DNA from: Phycisphaeraceae bacterium
GTDB taxonomy: Bacteria > Planctomycetota > Phycisphaerae > Phycisphaerales > Phycisphaeraceae
Length of the DNA: 64,000 nt
Assembly (NCBI GenBank): GCA_029260715.1
Contig: JAJDCS010000039.1
Coordinates: 62,001 to 126,000, forward strand
Reading direction: 5' to 3'
Below are positions 3,774 through 62,728 of the stretch, piece after piece. The number at the start of each line of letters is the position of its first letter. Positions within the stretch are counted from its first letter, which is position 1. Position numbers and translations under genes: made by a program. The notes under the pieces are model-generated. The model searched no databases. It was not told the DNA's origin and saw nothing but the letters and a program-made list of their open reading frames with translations.

Positions 3774-3846
3774 TGGAGCCGAGCGGGCTCGAACCGCTAA
3801 CCCCCGCGTTGCAAACGCGGTGCTCTCCCAATTGAGCTACGGCCCC
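3774..3846 (-). tRNA. tRNA-Ala (anticodon TGC)
   Basis: 73 nt on the minus strand, folding as a full cloverleaf. The acceptor stem GGGGCCG pairs with CGGCTCC and contains the G3:U70 wobble pair that marks alanine tRNAs. The D arm contains AGCTCAATTGGGAGAGC, the anticodon loop is TTTGCAA on a CCGCG/CGCGG stem, and the T loop reads GGTTCGAGCC. The discriminator is A and CCA is not encoded. No integrase or duplicated tRNA end was seen nearby. Confidence 0.97.
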
Positions 3847-33574: not shown

Positions 33575-33955
33575 ATGATTACTTATGGCAGAAAAGGCTT
33601 TCTATCGTGCTTGGCCGCGGCTCTGATGGGCGTGGCGTTGCTCCAAGGCTGCAAGATGGTCGCCCCGGGCGTGACCTATAACATCACCACACTAGAAGCG
33701 ATGATCTCCGCTGGACCAGAAGAAGTGACCGCGGCGGCCAAAGACGCCGTGCACGAGCTGAAGCTGGTGCTGATCACAGCCGAATCGACCGGGCTCGACG
33801 GCAAAGTCGTCGCCAGCACCGCTCAGGGGCAGAAGGTAAACATCGACGTCAAACACCAGGCCAAGAACATCAGCCATGTCAAGATCAAAGTCGGCAGGCT
33901 CGGTGATGAGATGACCAGCATGATGATCCTTGAGAAGATCAAGAGCCGGCTGTAG
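33575..33955 (+). CDS. DUF3568-type lipoprotein
   Basis: 126 residues. Signal peptide with lipobox ALLQGC (Cys near residue 26), then a compact domain with a regular beta-alpha pattern (VKIKVGRLGDEMTSMMIL) as in DUF3568 proteins of unknown function. AAAGGAG lies seven bases before the ATG, and a strong terminator follows the gene, so it is a single-gene unit with a probable operator at 33503. Confidence 0.85.
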   Translation: MITYGRKGFLSCLAAALMGVALLQGCKMVAPGVTYNITTLEAMISAGPEEVTAAAKDAVHELKLVLITAESTGLDGKVVASTAQGQKVNIDVKHQAKNISHVKIKVGRLGDEMTSMMILEKIKSRL

Positions 33956-34806: not shown

Positions 34807-35232
34807 CTACGCGTCGGCGTCGCTGACGCGTTGACGCATACGCTTAGCCTTGCCGCGGTGCTGCTTGCCCGCCAACCGCCTTTCTTTCGACGCAGCCGTG
34901 GGGCGGGTCTTGCGTCGCGGCTTGGGCTTCTGGGCTGCCCGGCGTAGCCAGTGGGTCAGCCGATCGATCGCGTCTTGCTGGTTACGCTGCTGCGTGCGGT
35001 AGCGTTGCGCTTTGATCATCAACACCCCGCCGCCTGTCACGCGCTTGCCCGCAAGCCGAATCAGCCGCTCCTTCACGTCGTCGGGCAGCGCCGCCGACCC
35101 ACGCACGTCGAACCGCAACTGGATCGCCGTGGCGACTTTGTTCACGTTCTGCCCGCCCGGCCCGGACGCACGCACAGCCTCGAGCCGCAACTCGCTTTCG
35201 TCGATCGCAATGGTGGGCGTGATACGCAGCAT
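34807..35232 (-). CDS. arfB: Peptidyl-tRNA hydrolase ArfB (stalled-ribosome rescue)
   Basis: 141 residues. The release-factor GGQ motif reads RASGPGGQNVNKVATAIQLR at residues 21-40. It lacks the codon-recognition domain of RF1/RF2 and ends in a long basic tail (KPKPRRKTRPTAASKERRLA), which in this family enters the empty mRNA channel. It works without a stop codon. It is upstream of plsY on the same strand, 50 bases apart. Confidence 0.94.
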   Translation of the reverse strand: MLRITPTIAIDESELRLEAVRASGPGGQNVNKVATAIQLRFDVRGSAALPDDVKERLIRLAGKRVTGGGVLMIKAQRYRTQQRNQQDAIDRLTHWLRRAAQKPKPRRKTRPTAASKERRLAGKQHRGKAKRMRQRVSDADA

Positions 35233-35303
35233 GGCTATCCATCATCATCGTTTAATACGGGCTATCAATGCAGAGATACACGCCGGTTAACACCGGACAC
35301 CAC

Positions 35304-35338
35304 AAAAAAACCCCTCGTGCCGGTTACAGCCGAGGGGT
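35304..35338 (-). terminator. Minus-strand terminator without an annotated gene
   Basis: On the minus strand, stem ACCCCTCG/CGAGGGGT is followed by seven T. The transcript it ends must start between about 35340 and 35600, where no minus-strand coding gene exists. Confidence 0.8.
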
Positions 35339-35396
35339 CTCGTATAGTAGTTCAGGATCACAAGTGATCCTATGTGAAGACATACACCCTATGTTT

Positions 35397-35420
35397 TGAG
35401 GGGGTGCGCCTCATTTTTTT
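35397..35420 (+). terminator. Plus-strand terminator without an annotated gene
   Basis: TGAGG paired with CCTCA around a GGGTGCG loop, then seven T (35414-35420). No plus-strand gene ends just upstream; arfB to the left is on the other strand. Confidence 0.7.
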
Positions 35421-35600
35421 GGTCAGGTGGACTGTCTTCCATGAGTCAGGTCTCCATGTTTGACGTGCATAATTCTATGGCTGTAGGTGTGGCGAAATCC
35501 AGAAAAGTGCCGCCACAAATACCACATTTTTTAGATTACACCCAAGTGCTCAGGCGCGAATTCAAGGACCGGTTTCCACCGCGCCGCTATACTCGTGTCA

Positions 35601-36254
35601 ATGCACAAACCGCTACACATTGAACCGTTTTGCCTCGGAGATTGGATGACCAACTGCTACGTTGTCCACCCCGCCGCCCAGCGGCCCGACCGACCGTGCT
35701 GGATCGTGGACGCGGGGTTCGACCCTGAGCCGATGATTCGCTACATCCAGCAACACAAACTGACGCCATCGCAAGTGGTGCTCACCCACGCGCACGTGGA
35801 CCACATCGCCGGGCTTGAAACGATCCGGCAACACTGGCCCGACCTGCCGATCGTCATCCACGAAGCCGAACGCGAGTTCCCCGCCGACCCGGCGCTGAAT
35901 CTGTCGATCGCGTTAACCGAGCCTGTTGTCGCCCCACCGCCGACAGGCTTGTTGCAACACGGGCAGAAGCTTGAATTGGACGGCCTGGCCTTCGAGGTCC
36001 GTCACACCCCAGGCCACAGCCCAGGCGGGGTGTCGCTGTATCAGCCAGACGCCGCGGTCGTGCTCGTGGGCGATGCGCTCTTCGCCGGCGGCATCGGCCG
36101 GTTTGATTTCCCCACCTCAGACGAAGAGACACTGCTACAGGGCATCCGCACGCAGCTCTACACCCTGCCCGACACCACGCGTGTGCTCTCGGGACACGGG
36201 CCGCCCACCACGATCGGCCATGAGCGAGCGCACAACCCGTATGTACGTGCGTAG
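35601..36254 (+). CDS. MBL-fold hydrolase (glyoxalase II-like)
   Basis: 217 residues. The zinc-binding HxHxDH motif is VVLTHAHVDHIAGLETI near residue 60; further ligands are the His in RHTPGHSPGGVSLY near 138 and DALF/GHGPPT later. This is the small thiolesterase-like subgroup; the substrate is not certain. A -10 box TATACT lies 8 bases ahead of ATG 35601 (GTG 35595 also in frame), so the message may be nearly leaderless. No partner gene follows. Confidence 0.9.
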   Translation: MHKPLHIEPFCLGDWMTNCYVVHPAAQRPDRPCWIVDAGFDPEPMIRYIQQHKLTPSQVVLTHAHVDHIAGLETIRQHWPDLPIVIHEAEREFPADPALNLSIALTEPVVAPPPTGLLQHGQKLELDGLAFEVRHTPGHSPGGVSLYQPDAAVVLVGDALFAGGIGRFDFPTSDEETLLQGIRTQLYTLPDTTRVLSGHGPPTTIGHERAHNPYVRA

Positions 36255-36914
36255 ACTCCGTATCGACGGCGTACCCCGACCCGCCGTGGCGGCGCACGTC
36301 GTTTGTAATTTAAAATTTTAGCTGGATTTAAGTCAAAATTGCCGTGTTGTCGCGCAAAAAAAGCGCTTCGTACTCACCGTGTGTGATGTAAAAAATCTGC
36401 TTTTTTCGAAGAATATCTCTTTTCAACTTTAATATTCGAGTCTATAATATATGTGTATAAGGTGGACTGTTTGAGGTGGAATCGCCTTTTCGCTTTTTCG
36501 CTTTTTCGCTTTTGTAGATTCCTCCTCCAGTCCAACCGCACATTAAAATTAAAACCACTGCCACATGGGTGTGCGTTATTAGCGTGATTTAACCCACGCA
36601 ATAATCCAATTAAGCCTTCTCCACATCGCGCACAACCCATAGTGCATATTACAGTTGCAAAATATGTTGGATTACACATGTGGCGCAAAAAGGGGGTTTG
36701 TATGATTAAACTTTAATGGTGAAATTAAGGTTTTTTTGGCCCGAATTTACAGTGGAGTTTTGATCTACAATTAAGCGTAATTATCTGGAAACATTAGCAG
36801 GGCCATACGCTTGCTAACTTGCACCTGTCAATCTTCCGGTAACTCCTAAGACAAACAAAAGCAGGCGTCACTGCCCCCCTTCTTCTTAGCCGGTACGGCT
36901 GGGGCTAGACAACT
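36255..36914. other. AT-rich gene-poor region
   Basis: About 660 bases with clearly lower GC than the window. No convincing protein gene; a 104-codon minus-strand frame at 36374-36688 has poor composition. It contains an 8-base tandem repeat (36483-36513) and an imperfect inverted repeat, CACATGGGTGTGCG at 36562-36575 facing CGCACAACCCATAGTG at 36629-36644. Confidence 0.6.
36483..36513. repeat. Short tandem repeat CGCTTTTT
   Basis: Four consecutive 8-base units (CGCCTTTT, then CGCTTTTT twice, then CGCTTTTG) inside the AT-rich region. Such runs are prone to slippage. Confidence 0.75.
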
Positions 36915-37187
36915 GTGGCTAGGCTGAGTGCTACAAAATTGGATCATAAAGCTACCAACAATAATAACAATCATGAGCTTAAACTTCTCGCGCAGCTTAC
37001 CGAGCGTGAGTTGGAAGTCTTGAAGCTGACGGCCGAGGGGCATTCCATCAAGGACATCGCGCGCAAGCTGCACCGTGCTCAGGGCACCATCGCCCGCCAC
37101 CGTGAAAACATCATGACAAAACTCAAGATTCACGACCGCGTCGCCCTGACACGTTTCGCCATCCGCACGAACCTGATCGAGGCGTAA
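36915..37187 (+). CDS. Orphan LuxR-type HTH protein
   Basis: 90 residues. The helix-turn-helix is complete: LTERELEVLKLTAEGHSIKDIARKLHRAQGTIARHRENI near residues 27-65, then MTKLKIHDRVAL. No receiver or ligand domain precedes it; the first 22 residues include a run of Asn. The GTG at 36915 is the only reasonable start. It is isolated in an AT-rich stretch, with no histidine kinase or autoinducer gene nearby. It is probably a DNA-binding regulator without its own sensor. Confidence 0.78.
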   Translation: MARLSATKLDHKATNNNNNHELKLLAQLTERELEVLKLTAEGHSIKDIARKLHRAQGTIARHRENIMTKLKIHDRVALTRFAIRTNLIEA

Positions 37188-57908: not shown

Positions 57909-60785
57909 TTACCGCCGCATCAGCATGCGCCAGCCGTGCCAGGATGTTAGGTCCGCGTTGGCGTCGCTTGTTATGGGTTCGGGCAGCAGCGACCGGATCT
58001 TGCGGGTTAACTCGGTGTTGCTTGCGGTTGGTCGGTCCGCCTGCCGGTCCCAGCGTGTGATCTGTGCTCCGAGCGTGGACAGCCGCCGCAACCGCGAGTC
58101 GTTGGGCAGCCGCGTGTCGAAGCGCACGGCCAATTCGTCTTCAAAAACCAGCCAGTTCCGCCCGTTCATGAAGTAGCCGTCTTCCCAAAGCCCGGTCACA
58201 AAGTCCCGCCCGGCGTTTAGCTCGATCCAGGTGTTGCCAAGCGTGTTGACCGGTTGGCTAACCGTGTCTGCCGCTTCAACGGGGCCCAGGTGCAGCATGG
58301 CGACGCCTTCCCAGTGGCGGATTAAGGGGTCGCGGATGCGGTTGTCTTGGCGCACACGGTCGCAATGCCGGGCGATCGCTTGCCAGTCCAGGTCGGCGTG
58401 GTTCATGCCCACCATCGCCAACACGGGCATCTGGGCGTTGAAGCCGAGGCGGAAGAGGTGCGCCTTGGGGAAGACTTGCAGAAAGGTATTCAGGACGACT
58501 TGCTGTTGGTCGCGGCTGAACTGGTACATGGGCAGCATCTGGCAGAACAGCCCCCTCGGCCGCAGCGCCCGGCGCGCGGCGCGGAAGTGCTCTAGGCTGT
58601 ACAACCGCCCGACGCCGGGGCGCCAGGGCAGGAAGAGGTCACCGACGACCACGTCAAACCGTTCGACGCACGACGCGAGGTAGGTGCGTCCGTCTTCGAT
58701 GACGACACGGGCGCGCGGGTCGGTGAAGATGCCGCCGTTGGCGTCGGCGAAGTATCTCTCTGAAGCCTCGGCGACCAGTTCGGATAGTTCGACGGCTGTG
58801 ACCGATTCAACCTCGTCGTGCATCAGCGCGGCGCCGGCGGTGATGCCCGTGGCCAAGCCGATGAACGCCACGCTGCGCGGCTGAGGGTGGAGCATGATCG
58901 GCAGGTGGGCTTGTCGCTGCTCGTCGTGTACGCCCGCGGTGCTGCCTAGCACGTATTGGTTGAACATCACGATCGCGCGTCCCAGTTCGTCGCTGTCGGT
59001 GACCACGACAAGCCCCTCGGGCCCGCCCTTGGCCCAGACGGTCTTGAACTGGATCTTCTTGGTCGGTGCGGGGTGGATCAGAGGCAGTCGCAGCAGGCGG
59101 TCCACGCCGATGACTAAAATCAAGGCCACCACACCGACCTGCCGCCACACCGGCGGCGCGGCGCGGTACGCCATCCACAAGCCGAAACCCATGAGCATGA
59201 ACACCGCGACGATGACGGCCCGGCGCTCGCCGTATTGGAAGCTCACCCAAGCCAAGGTGACAACAGCGCCAGCCACGACGGCGTATTGCCCCGGCCCCAC
59301 TGGATTGCCACGCCACCATAGATATAGCCGCCACAACACGCCGATCGCAGCCGCCCCGGCGAGCAGCAGCATGGCTGTGATGATCATCTGTTGTTGACCC
59401 ACTGAAGCCCATATCAAGCCGAGCAAGAGCAACGCGGTCAATACCGCCGCGTGCTGCCGGGCGCTGCCCAGGAAGCCCCGCCACCCGCTGTTGGTTAGCG
59501 CCATGACCACCGCAAGGCCCGCGTACCCCAAGCCGAACACGCCCACCGCGCCGTGCATGCCCACGACCGGCATCACCAGGCGTTGGGCTGCGATGGTCCC
59601 AACCAGCCCCCCCACCCCGTTGACCGCTAACAGCCAGCCCCACCGCCGCCCGTACGGGTCGCCCCCCTCGGCGGCGAACCAGGCGAATACCAGCGGCAGC
59701 ACCAACCCGGCCAGCAACATGCACGGGCCCAGCGTGCACAGCACATAGAAGGTGATCTTCAACACGAACAACGCGACGCCGGTGCTTGGGCGGATCGTGA
59801 CCAGGTTGTTGGTCATCCACATAAAAAGCAACGGCGCCGCGGCTGTGGCGATGCCCGTGAATGCGAGCACAGGCACAAGCAGCCGCTGGGGCGCGTCGAT
59901 CCGCGGCGCCAGCACCGGCGCTACCGCCGCCGCGATCGCCAGCAACAAAATGACCGACGCGAGCACGGCGGCCACCGCGTGCACCGCCGACGGCGCGACT
60001 TGACCAAACAGGTGTAGCCCCAGAACCTCCACGCCCAGCACACCCGCGCCCGAAGCGAACGCCATGAACAAAACGACAAGCGGCGGGCGCGCCCCGCTAG
60101 CGGCGGCGTTTAGTTCGGGCTGTGGCGACGCCGGGTTTGCTTGTCGGTGTGTTTGAGGTTTTGCGGCTCGGCTGTCGTCGAGCATGGCGCAGCCCGCCGC
60201 GACGAGCAGGTTCATCGCCATGGCAACGCCCATTGAGCCGGCCACGCCAAACCGGTGCAGCACCACAATGGTGGTCACCAGCAGCCCCGCCACGCCGCCG
60301 GCGGTGTTCATCGCGTACAGCCACACGCCGTGGCGTCCCAGGGCCATATCGCCTTTGAGCACCGCCGCGGCAAAGAGCGGCAGTGTCACGCCCATCACAA
60401 ACGCCGGTGGTATCACAACCAAGACCGAGACGACAAGCTTTACCGTCGCGCCGACCCAGGTCGTCAACATCTCAGGCCCCAGCCAAGGCCAAAGCCAGTC
60501 GGTCCAAGCCGGCAGCGTCACCGCGGGCAGCGTGAGCAACGCGATGCACAGCTCCGCCACGGCTAATGCCCGCCACGGTCGCGTCACGCGCCGCGTGAGC
60601 CGCGTCGACCAGGCCGACCCGAACGCCAGGCCCACAAAAAAACAGCCCAGCACGCGCGAGCTGGATTCCGTGGAGGCGCCCAGCAAGTCGATCAGCCGCC
60701 GTGTCCACAGCAACTCATGCGATAGCGCCGCCGCCCCGCTCAACGCGGCGAGCAACAAAGCCCCGGTGTACCGGTTGTGGGTCAT
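57909..60785 (-). CDS. Spermidine-synthase-like protein fused to a multi-helix membrane domain
   Basis: 958 residues. The first 640 hold about 18-20 membrane helices in two blocks (ELLWTRRLIDLLGAS at the start; LVLPLVFAWFAAEGGDPYGR near 355). The C-terminal 310 form a Rossmann methyltransferase-type domain with AFIGLATGITAGAALMHDEV, VTAVELSELVAEASERYF, VIEDGRTYLA and VVGDLFLPWRPGVGRLYS, as in spermidine synthases. Such fusions are common in planctomycetes but their product is not known. An aminopropyltransferase role is not assured, because the polyamine pocket is not clear here. Confidence 0.83.
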   Translation of the reverse strand: MTHNRYTGALLLAALSGAAALSHELLWTRRLIDLLGASTESSSRVLGCFFVGLAFGSAWSTRLTRRVTRPWRALAVAELCIALLTLPAVTLPAWTDWLWPWLGPEMLTTWVGATVKLVVSVLVVIPPAFVMGVTLPLFAAAVLKGDMALGRHGVWLYAMNTAGGVAGLLVTTIVVLHRFGVAGSMGVAMAMNLLVAAGCAMLDDSRAAKPQTHRQANPASPQPELNAAASGARPPLVVLFMAFASGAGVLGVEVLGLHLFGQVAPSAVHAVAAVLASVILLLAIAAAVAPVLAPRIDAPQRLLVPVLAFTGIATAAAPLLFMWMTNNLVTIRPSTGVALFVLKITFYVLCTLGPCMLLAGLVLPLVFAWFAAEGGDPYGRRWGWLLAVNGVGGLVGTIAAQRLVMPVVGMHGAVGVFGLGYAGLAVVMALTNSGWRGFLGSARQHAAVLTALLLLGLIWASVGQQQMIITAMLLLAGAAAIGVLWRLYLWWRGNPVGPGQYAVVAGAVVTLAWVSFQYGERRAVIVAVFMLMGFGLWMAYRAAPPVWRQVGVVALILVIGVDRLLRLPLIHPAPTKKIQFKTVWAKGGPEGLVVVTDSDELGRAIVMFNQYVLGSTAGVHDEQRQAHLPIMLHPQPRSVAFIGLATGITAGAALMHDEVESVTAVELSELVAEASERYFADANGGIFTDPRARVVIEDGRTYLASCVERFDVVVGDLFLPWRPGVGRLYSLEHFRAARRALRPRGLFCQMLPMYQFSRDQQQVVLNTFLQVFPKAHLFRLGFNAQMPVLAMVGMNHADLDWQAIARHCDRVRQDNRIRDPLIRHWEGVAMLHLGPVEAADTVSQPVNTLGNTWIELNAGRDFVTGLWEDGYFMNGRNWLVFEDELAVRFDTRLPNDSRLRRLSTLGAQITRWDRQADRPTASNTELTRKIRSLLPEPITSDANADLTSWHGWRMLMRR

Positions 60786-60830
60786 GAAAACACCCGATGG
60801 CCACGGTCGGCCTTGATCCCGTTCGACCTG

Positions 60831-60865
60831 AAAGCAAGCAGCGCCCCGCTAAGGGCGCTGCTTGC
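60831..60865 (-). terminator. Strong hairpin ending the PEP-CTERM gene
   Basis: Thirteen-base stem GCAAGCAGCGCCC/GGGCGCTGCTTGC with a 6-base loop. On the minus strand it follows the stop at 60898 by about 30 bases and is followed by TTT only, so termination may be partial. Confidence 0.7.
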
Positions 60866-60897
60866 GAAACACTCACGTCGGTCGAGTGTCATACCCA

Positions 60898-61785
60898 TCA
60901 CGCCGTCCGGCGACGCAGGCCCACCAGTGCGGCCCCCACCGCTGTGACCATCACCGCCGTGGTCGGCTCCGGAAGGGCTATCGCCGCAAATGCGGCGTTG
61001 TTGTACTGGGAGGTGCTTAGCTGGTTGTTGAACACGATGAAGATCGGGTCCGAATCCAGCACCGCCCCCGCCCCACCCACTTCACGCGCGGACAAGCCGA
61101 CCTCGATCATGTACGCGCCTACTTCGGGGATGCCACCGCCGGTGCGGCTGAGCATGTACCCCAGGTGGGCGTGCAGCGAGCCGTTGGCGCCGGACACGTC
61201 CAGGTTGGTCGTGCCCAACAGCCCCGAGCTGGTGGCGGTGTAAATAGTCTCCAGGTCGCCGGCGGGGCCGCCGGTGGTGGCGACGGTGTCGTCGGCGCCG
61301 GTCAGGTCGAGGGCGTTGAGTTGCGTGTCGCTGACCGGCTGAGTCCACGTGCCGCCGCTGGTCCCGTCGTGGTACCGCAAAGCGTTATAGAAATTAGCGC
61401 TCAGCAGGTAATTAGCAGGCAGCCCGCTCGCCTCGGCGATATACCCCGGGTCGTCGGCCAACAGCTTTGTGCTGGTGGAACTCGCCAATGTGCTCGACGG
61501 GGCGTTTCCGTCGCGTTCGGCGATACCGCCCAAGACCGTGCCGAAAGGCGTGCCGGTGCTGAACCCGCCGACGTTGTGCCGGACAATGGTCTGCCCGACG
61601 GCGTTGGTGGAGAGCTTGCCGGTCAAGTCCCCCACGCCGTTGGTAATAACCAGCTTGTTGGCAGCGTTCACCTCGACCTGGATCAGCCCGTGTGGCGGAC
61701 TAAACGCGGGGTCGTCCGCCATGGCCACGGTGGCGGTCAGCAGACACGCGCCGATTGAACTGAAAATACGTTTTGATTTCATCAT
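60898..61785 (-). CDS. PEP-CTERM protein
   Basis: 295 residues. Signal peptide residues 1-23 (ending AMA), a Gly/Thr/Ser-rich secreted domain with no recognised fold, and a C-terminal sorting tail ALPEPTTAVMVTAVGAALVG followed by LRRRTA. AGGAG lies eight bases ahead of ATG 61785. The final 25 residues resemble those of the next gene, though the bodies differ. Confidence 0.88.
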   Translation of the reverse strand: MMKSKRIFSSIGACLLTATVAMADDPAFSPPHGLIQVEVNAANKLVITNGVGDLTGKLSTNAVGQTIVRHNVGGFSTGTPFGTVLGGIAERDGNAPSSTLASSTSTKLLADDPGYIAEASGLPANYLLSANFYNALRYHDGTSGGTWTQPVSDTQLNALDLTGADDTVATTGGPAGDLETIYTATSSGLLGTTNLDVSGANGSLHAHLGYMLSRTGGGIPEVGAYMIEVGLSAREVGGAGAVLDSDPIFIVFNNQLSTSQYNNAAFAAIALPEPTTAVMVTAVGAALVGLRRRTA

Positions 61786-61876
61786 TGCAAGTACTCCTTA
61801 TCATCAGCCGACCCGGGAGGCGGCCCTTGCTTGTGACGGCAAGGGTCGCCCCTGTGGGTCGTTGATGGTTAGATGA

Positions 61877-62728
61877 TTACGCGGAAGCCTTGCGGCGGCG
61901 TGAGCCGACCGCTGCTAGCCCGCCCGCGACTGCCAACACTAGGCCGGTGGTCGGTTCGGGAACCACGTTACTCTCCAGGTAGCCGACCGCGCTTTGAAAA
62001 GCGCTGTTGATGCCTGCGCTGCCGCCGCGGTTGAGCAACAACGGCACAGCGACCATCTCCGAGTCGGTCAGGCCCGTGATGCCCACGATGTGGCCCAACA
62101 GGTAGATGCCGTCGGGCGCTTCAAAGGTGCCCCCGCCGTTCTCACCCACCACGTCGTACCGCATGTGGAAGTGCCCGTTGCGGCCGCCATCGGCGTTGAG
62201 CGTGTCTTCCACCCAGGTCATCGGGTTCAAACCACCGTCGAGGGTCGTTCTTAAATCAACACTGCCGCCGTCCTGGCGCAGGATGTCGATGCGCACATCG
62301 GTGGGCGCGGCGCCGAAGCTGGGCGTCCCGCCCGAGCCGTCCCAGTACAAGAAGTTACCCGAGCCGTTGAGCTTGGAGTGCGACAGCACGGGGTTGGTGA
62401 TCTTCAGGTCGCTGTTACCCGGCAGCGGGCTGAAGCCGGGGATGTCGTTGTACGCGGGGTCCCCTGTCACCACGCCGAACGCCGACGGCTGGCCGGCACG
62501 CGCGGCGTTTTCATCCAGGCCGGGCGTGGCGCTCGGGTCGAACGCGTCAAAGAACGTATCGAACGCGCCGGACACCACGCGGTCCGGGGCGAACCCGCTG
62601 CCTTCGTCGACAAACGTGTGGATCTTGCCCTGGGCGTCCTGCGCGGGCAGGTAGCTATGCTGGGCCTGGGCGAACGTCGCCGCGGCCAACACAGCCGAGG
62701 CGGAAACAATAAGAGTTGAAGTCTTCAT
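61877..62728 (-). CDS. PEP-CTERM protein
   Basis: 283 residues. Signal peptide 1-22 (ending AQAQ), a secreted domain with repeated Asp/Gly/Asn turns, and tail VVPEPTTGLVLAVAGGLAAV followed by GSRRRKASA. GGAGA lies nine bases before ATG 62728; TTG 62734 is an alternative. The body mentions no known enzyme fold. It is tandem to the previous PEP-CTERM gene, 91 bases apart, suggesting related export but separate function. Confidence 0.88.
   Translation of the reverse strand: MKTSTLIVSASAVLAAATFAQAQHSYLPAQDAQGKIHTFVDEGSGFAPDRVVSGAFDTFFDAFDPSATPGLDENAARAGQPSAFGVVTGDPAYNDIPGFSPLPGNSDLKITNPVLSHSKLNGSGNFLYWDGSGGTPSFGAAPTDVRIDILRQDGGSVDLRTTLDGGLNPMTWVEDTLNADGGRNGHFHMRYDVVGENGGGTFEAPDGIYLLGHIVGITGLTDSEMVAVPLLLNRGGSAGINSAFQSAVGYLESNVVPEPTTGLVLAVAGGLAAVGSRRRKASA

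Follow-up and report, generated by a model that had tools for sequence, protein, structure and literature searches.

A strong minus-strand terminator between divergent arfB-like and MBL-fold hydrolase genes of a Phycisphaeraceae bacterium and the candidate short RNA it may end

Gene setting of the spacer

We analyzed a window of 64,000 nucleotides (C33:62001-126000) from a Phycisphaeraceae genome of 3.32 Mb in 44 contigs, estimated as 96.5% complete. The spacer studied here (window positions 35233-35600) is 368 nt long and has a GC content of 49%, compared with 61% contig-wide. It is flanked by an arfB-like gene on the minus strand (34807-35232; NCBIfam ArfB NF006718, 185 bits with a cut-off of 100) and by an MBL-fold hydrolase gene on the plus strand (35601-36254). 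The best NCBIfam match of the latter, glyoxalase II, scored 93.3 bits, below the cut-off of 200.8, and its best named matches were from Phycisphaeraceae, Phycisphaerales and Planctomycetota MAGs. Genes were called with a simple codon model built on one contig. An initial sequence-only reading of this region had described neighboring genes that point away, and this was confirmed: the two genes are divergent, so no neighboring gene enters the spacer.

Besides this arfB-like gene, which is a divergent copy, the genome has another ArfB-like frame (C39:32955-33368), and the two share 40% identity. Among 60 relatives the sole close homologue of the gene in the window was that of genome G048 (67% identity). 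The other full-length matches listed reached at most 44% and the split matches of G058 47% and 44%, with higher values for short release-factor matches. We considered and rejected a conserved arfB-MBL neighborhood. Across loci L021-L069 (flanks of 1.5 to 3 kb, some ended by contig ends; L069 lacked a tblastn hit), both genes were matched only in this genome's own two loci. At the G048 locus a codirectional upstream frame takes the place of the MBL-fold gene; such upstream frames at homologue loci are mechanical calls, unchecked as genes. For the MBL-fold gene, 4 of the 16 loci compared carried an opposite-strand hairpin of -8 kcal/mol or lower within 450 nt upstream (L058 had the best, -16.6), and these upstream hairpins followed no common pattern across the 16 loci.

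Five small frames on the two strands (34, 43, 29, 24 and 75 aa) were rejected as protein genes because their composition looks non-coding: they scored -5.8 to -30.5, whereas 34-codon pieces of genes have a 5% quantile of -0.8. The first four had no Pfam match at E values up to 10, and the 75-aa frame had none at 0.001. No relative of the 34-aa frame was found in 60 other genomes, apart from a 22-residue match in G031 (E 0.03).

Hairpins, promoter candidates and relatives of the spacer

The most prominent structure in the spacer is a strong intrinsic terminator on the minus strand (35304-35341), with the arfB-like gene downstream of it. Its core stem (35311-35338) has a predicted energy of -19.1 kcal/mol, and pairing of a GAGA with four U of the U7 tract extends this to -23.5 kcal/mol. 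In dinucleotide shuffles of the spacer, 0 of 500 reached -15 kcal/mol or below, and the best shuffle was at -13.3. The terminator scan gives many false positives within genes (121 of 166 rows), and for that reason only strong hairpins were weighed. In a strict T-tract scan of the 219-kb contig, this terminator tops the five hairpins of -19 kcal/mol or lower outside predicted genes. Three of the five follow a same-strand gene at distances of 29, 44 and 53 nt, which argues that such structures mark RNA ends on this contig. Folding was also better than in 200 shuffles for a 121-nt stretch, with z = -4.66 on the minus strand and -3.26 on the plus strand. The minus-strand terminator is genuine, and it is independent of any neighboring gene, as is looked for in small RNA (sRNA) candidates.

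A shared terminator sequence, CCCTCG-loop-CGAGGG-N-TTT, was considered and set aside. It was returned in four rows, two of which are one stem on contig C24 read from both strands, leaving three distinct places in the genome. A local alignment with C4:147-174 spans just the 3' arm and tail of the minus-strand terminator.

On the plus strand, a weak terminator-like hairpin (35397-35420; 5-bp outer stem, -6.2 kcal/mol, T7) may be a chance product. A hairpin with a T tract of at least -5.5 kcal/mol strength appeared on the plus strand in 47 of 500 spacer shuffles, on the minus strand in 12 and on both strands in one. The rarity of this last combination is carried by the minus-strand structure. Thus, of the crossed terminators proposed in the sequence-only reading, the minus-strand one is confirmed, and the plus-strand one is present as described but weak and often equalled in shuffles.

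That reading had also placed a perfect hairpin between the two terminators. It is present, in the fuller form AGGATCAC-AA-GTGATCCT (35354-35371), whose 8-bp arms could pair in either RNA strand, but it is ordinary: palindromes with 8-bp arms and loops of 0-6 nt arose in 31 of 1000 shuffles and gave 31 matches in the contig's 137 spacers (35,602 nt). A role as the operator palindrome of a regulon was rejected, as the genome holds a single copy at up to two mismatches. At three mismatches there are three further genome sites, with one for a control pattern.

Promoters were scored with E. coli sigma-70 weights. Candidate minus-strand starts lie near 35566, 35528, 35465 and 35342, and the candidate promoters include TTGAAT-19-TGTAAT and TGGATT-18-TAGAAT. 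The best four, from a 299-nt stretch, scored 4.56 to 5.33, where the bests of random 160-nt spacer stretches had a median of 4.1 and a 75% quantile of 5.33. The minus-strand promoter candidates are no better than those in random spacer stretches. If TAGAAT at 35477-35472 serves as a -10 element, the proposed minus-strand RNA would cover 35304-35465, about 162 nt. The best promoter-like site of arfB itself, TTGATA-16-GATGAT, lies downstream of the terminator with a predicted start at about 35234, and that of the MBL-fold gene has a predicted start at about 35600. Both genes could therefore be leaderless. Contig-wide the leaderless signal is slight: over 134 genes, 18 sites begin 10-15 nt before the start codon, and other sets of six positions have an average of 12.

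The sequence-only reading held that no known RNA family fits the spacer, and Rfam agreed: at family cut-offs nothing was reached in the whole window except a tRNA (3774-3846). A relaxed search of 35200-35700 gave four sub-threshold matches, every one with an E value of at least 0.35. We rejected His_leader (RF00514, second-ranked among these; 19.2 bits against a cut-off of 49) and nse_sRNA (sub-threshold, 20.9 of 75 bits). A 6S RNA was likewise rejected, since 35200-35700 has no RF00013 match and the genome carries its 6S RNA on another contig (C13:136452-136631; 63.8 bits, cut-off 46.4). On contig C33, the scanned parts (7 of 11 stretches plus the window, leaving out 60001-62000 and 126001-140000) contained three tRNAs and one TPP riboswitch.

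Searching the spacer DNA in 40 relatives at E values up to 1 returned only matches of 16-33 nt, in 17 of them (best E 0.009). In 50 other genomes of the family, at E values up to 0.05, this best match, of 20 nt in G005, was the only one to reappear (E 0.008). Within its own genome the spacer matched, besides itself, a terminator arm only (E 0.045). Conservation in relatives, a further mark of sRNAs, was therefore not found among the searched genomes, a set with no member of the same genus. An RNA model built from the window sequence alone and searched in 60 other genomes gave a single weak match, in G048 (E 0.011, 26.2 bits).

What the minus-strand terminator may end

As the likeliest single reading, we tentatively propose that a short non-coding transcript begins in the arfB-MBL spacer and ends at the minus-strand terminator, a reading to which we give slightly less than an even chance. 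The transcript would start within 35340-35600 and halt at 35304, short of arfB, for which a separate start nearer the gene is probable. Its parts would include a AGGAUCAC hairpin and, joined by a short linker, the stem of the terminator, which is the anatomy of an independent bacterial sRNA. We infer its transcription, its start site and any function. It could act as an ordinary base-pairing sRNA, or it could be a by-product of the divergent promoter region, a transcript with no function that the terminator prevents from entering arfB.

We favor this reading because the terminator far exceeds the shuffles, the five tested frames are non-coding, candidate minus-strand promoters exist, and the best promoter-like site of arfB lies downstream of the terminator. 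In S. meliloti, RNA was detected from 14 of 18 chosen spacers, some of them picked for an orphan terminator (PMC2573895). The reading is weakened by the lack of a DNA homologue in the 50 other family genomes, by the RNA model having found just a gene-trailing terminator in G048, and by promoter scores that lie between the random median and the 75% quantile. Like independent intergenic sRNAs with a Rho-independent terminator, the candidate is terminator-ended, hairpin-bearing and located in a spacer with no coding-like frame. It differs from them in that no conservation was found and its candidate promoters score at random level.

A leftover terminator is a serious rival, ranked second and somewhat less probable. 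Here a minus-strand gene once located in the spacer would have been lost or moved, and its terminator would have stayed. The sole match of the RNA model bears on this directly. It starts 73 nt behind the stop codon of a same-strand 471-aa DRE-TIM gene (isopropylmalate/homocitrate-synthase-like) of G048, and from this position we take it to be an ordinary gene terminator. No ortholog of that gene was found in the genome studied here, which gave three partial matches of 25-33% identity. The terminators of the spacer and of G048 align with a score of 45; among 42 further strong hairpins of the contig the highest score was 32, and the whole alignment (score 56) exceeded all 500 shuffles. Upstream of the terminator, however, the likeness to the G048 3' end was equalled by 403 of 500 shuffles, and the tested frames there lack coding-like composition. 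Moreover, an E value of 0.011 in one genome is not significant when 61 were searched. The likeness to G048 lies in the terminator, and it keeps the leftover reading alive.

Outside the window, a gene 3' end and its terminator are duplicated at C33:57826-58009 and 58950-59138 (189 nt, 92%), and the second copy leaves an orphan terminator. This hairpin (C33:59018-59048) is the only other orphan of -19 kcal/mol or lower on the contig. Since it lies in a duplicate of a neighboring gene's 3' end, a remnant must be considered in the spacer as well. The view that the minus-strand terminator has no gene to end is true today, but may not have been so in the past. In both cases a strong terminator lacks an intact gene on the same strand ahead of it; the spacer differs from such products of duplication or loss in having no recognizable gene fragment upstream.

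An attenuator for arfB seems unlikely. Under this explanation a long minus-strand leader from the spacer would mostly stop at 35304 and would, under some condition, read through into arfB. It fits with a U tract that has the same sense as arfB and whose end lies 71 nt short of its start codon, and with an upstream CACCCCCUC that, judged by eye, might be able to pair with the GAGGGG arm. Yet all four folded minus-strand leaders (147-287 nt) retained the terminator in the minimum-energy fold. None of 29 arfB-homologue loci, those fetched among the 60 relatives searched (excluding L064, which has no upstream sequence, and the self loci L021 and L051), had an arfB-strand hairpin of -16 kcal/mol or lower within 450 nt upstream. 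Eight of them had a weaker one (best -15.8 at L039 and -14.4 at L037), and the nearest homologue, in G048, had no upstream hairpin. The spacer resembles the leader attenuators of biosynthetic operons (e.g., His_leader) in placing a terminator 5' of a same-sense gene, whereas it shows no competing structure in the minimum-energy folds, and a terminator of similar strength is absent before the 29 homologues.

Overlapping small RNAs on both strands, as proposed in the sequence-only reading, are improbable. TATAGT at 35343-35348 would start a plus-strand RNA at about 35355, at the palindrome, and terminators on both strands were as rare in shuffles as noted above. Against this, shuffles often produce a hairpin as good as the weak plus-strand terminator, and the promoter, CGGTTA-16-TATAGT, has a poor -35 element and scores a low 2.74, with the spacer median at 4.1. 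We find no support for a plus-strand RNA, while a minus-strand RNA ending at 35304 is retained as a fair reading and a candidate. Least probable of all is the full combination of a lineage-specific minus-strand sRNA of about 70-225 nt in the arfB-MBL spacer with a short overlapping plus-strand antisense partner.

With one real terminator, no conserved RNA found and no mechanism beyond a known kind, nothing marks a new kind of element. If transcribed, the candidate would be a planctomycete small RNA not recorded before; among the few papers found by our literature searches on Planctomycetes, none was recognizable from its title or the start of its abstract as an sRNA study in that group. Should the terminator instead be a remnant, it would caution against taking orphan terminators by themselves as proof of sRNAs. 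The stake is modest under either reading.

Repeats near the locus and in the genome

At lower coordinates than the arfB-like gene, most of a DUF3568 gene (33575-33955) is found again elsewhere in the genome as DNA of 77% identity: positions 33593-33955 correspond to C4:359-721. Beyond the MBL-fold gene, an AT-rich spacer (36255-36938) precedes a small LuxR-type HTH gene. Within it are a short tandem repeat of TTTTTCGC and, at 36420-36448, a sigma-70-like site. It also contains AGGTGGACTGT (36460-36470), which is seen a second time at 35425-35435.

The genome also carries 56 exact copies of a 20-nt repeat, GGCACGGCTTGCTTGCAAGC, 41 in forward and 15 in reverse orientation (e.g., L019:272-291, L022:1336-1355 and L085:1374-1393); some copies form close pairs. 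The window has no match to it at up to three mismatches. In the 40 relatives searched only a single copy was found (in G010); two loci of G048, a genome outside that set, contain it as well. The repeat resembles a REP-type element belonging to this lineage.
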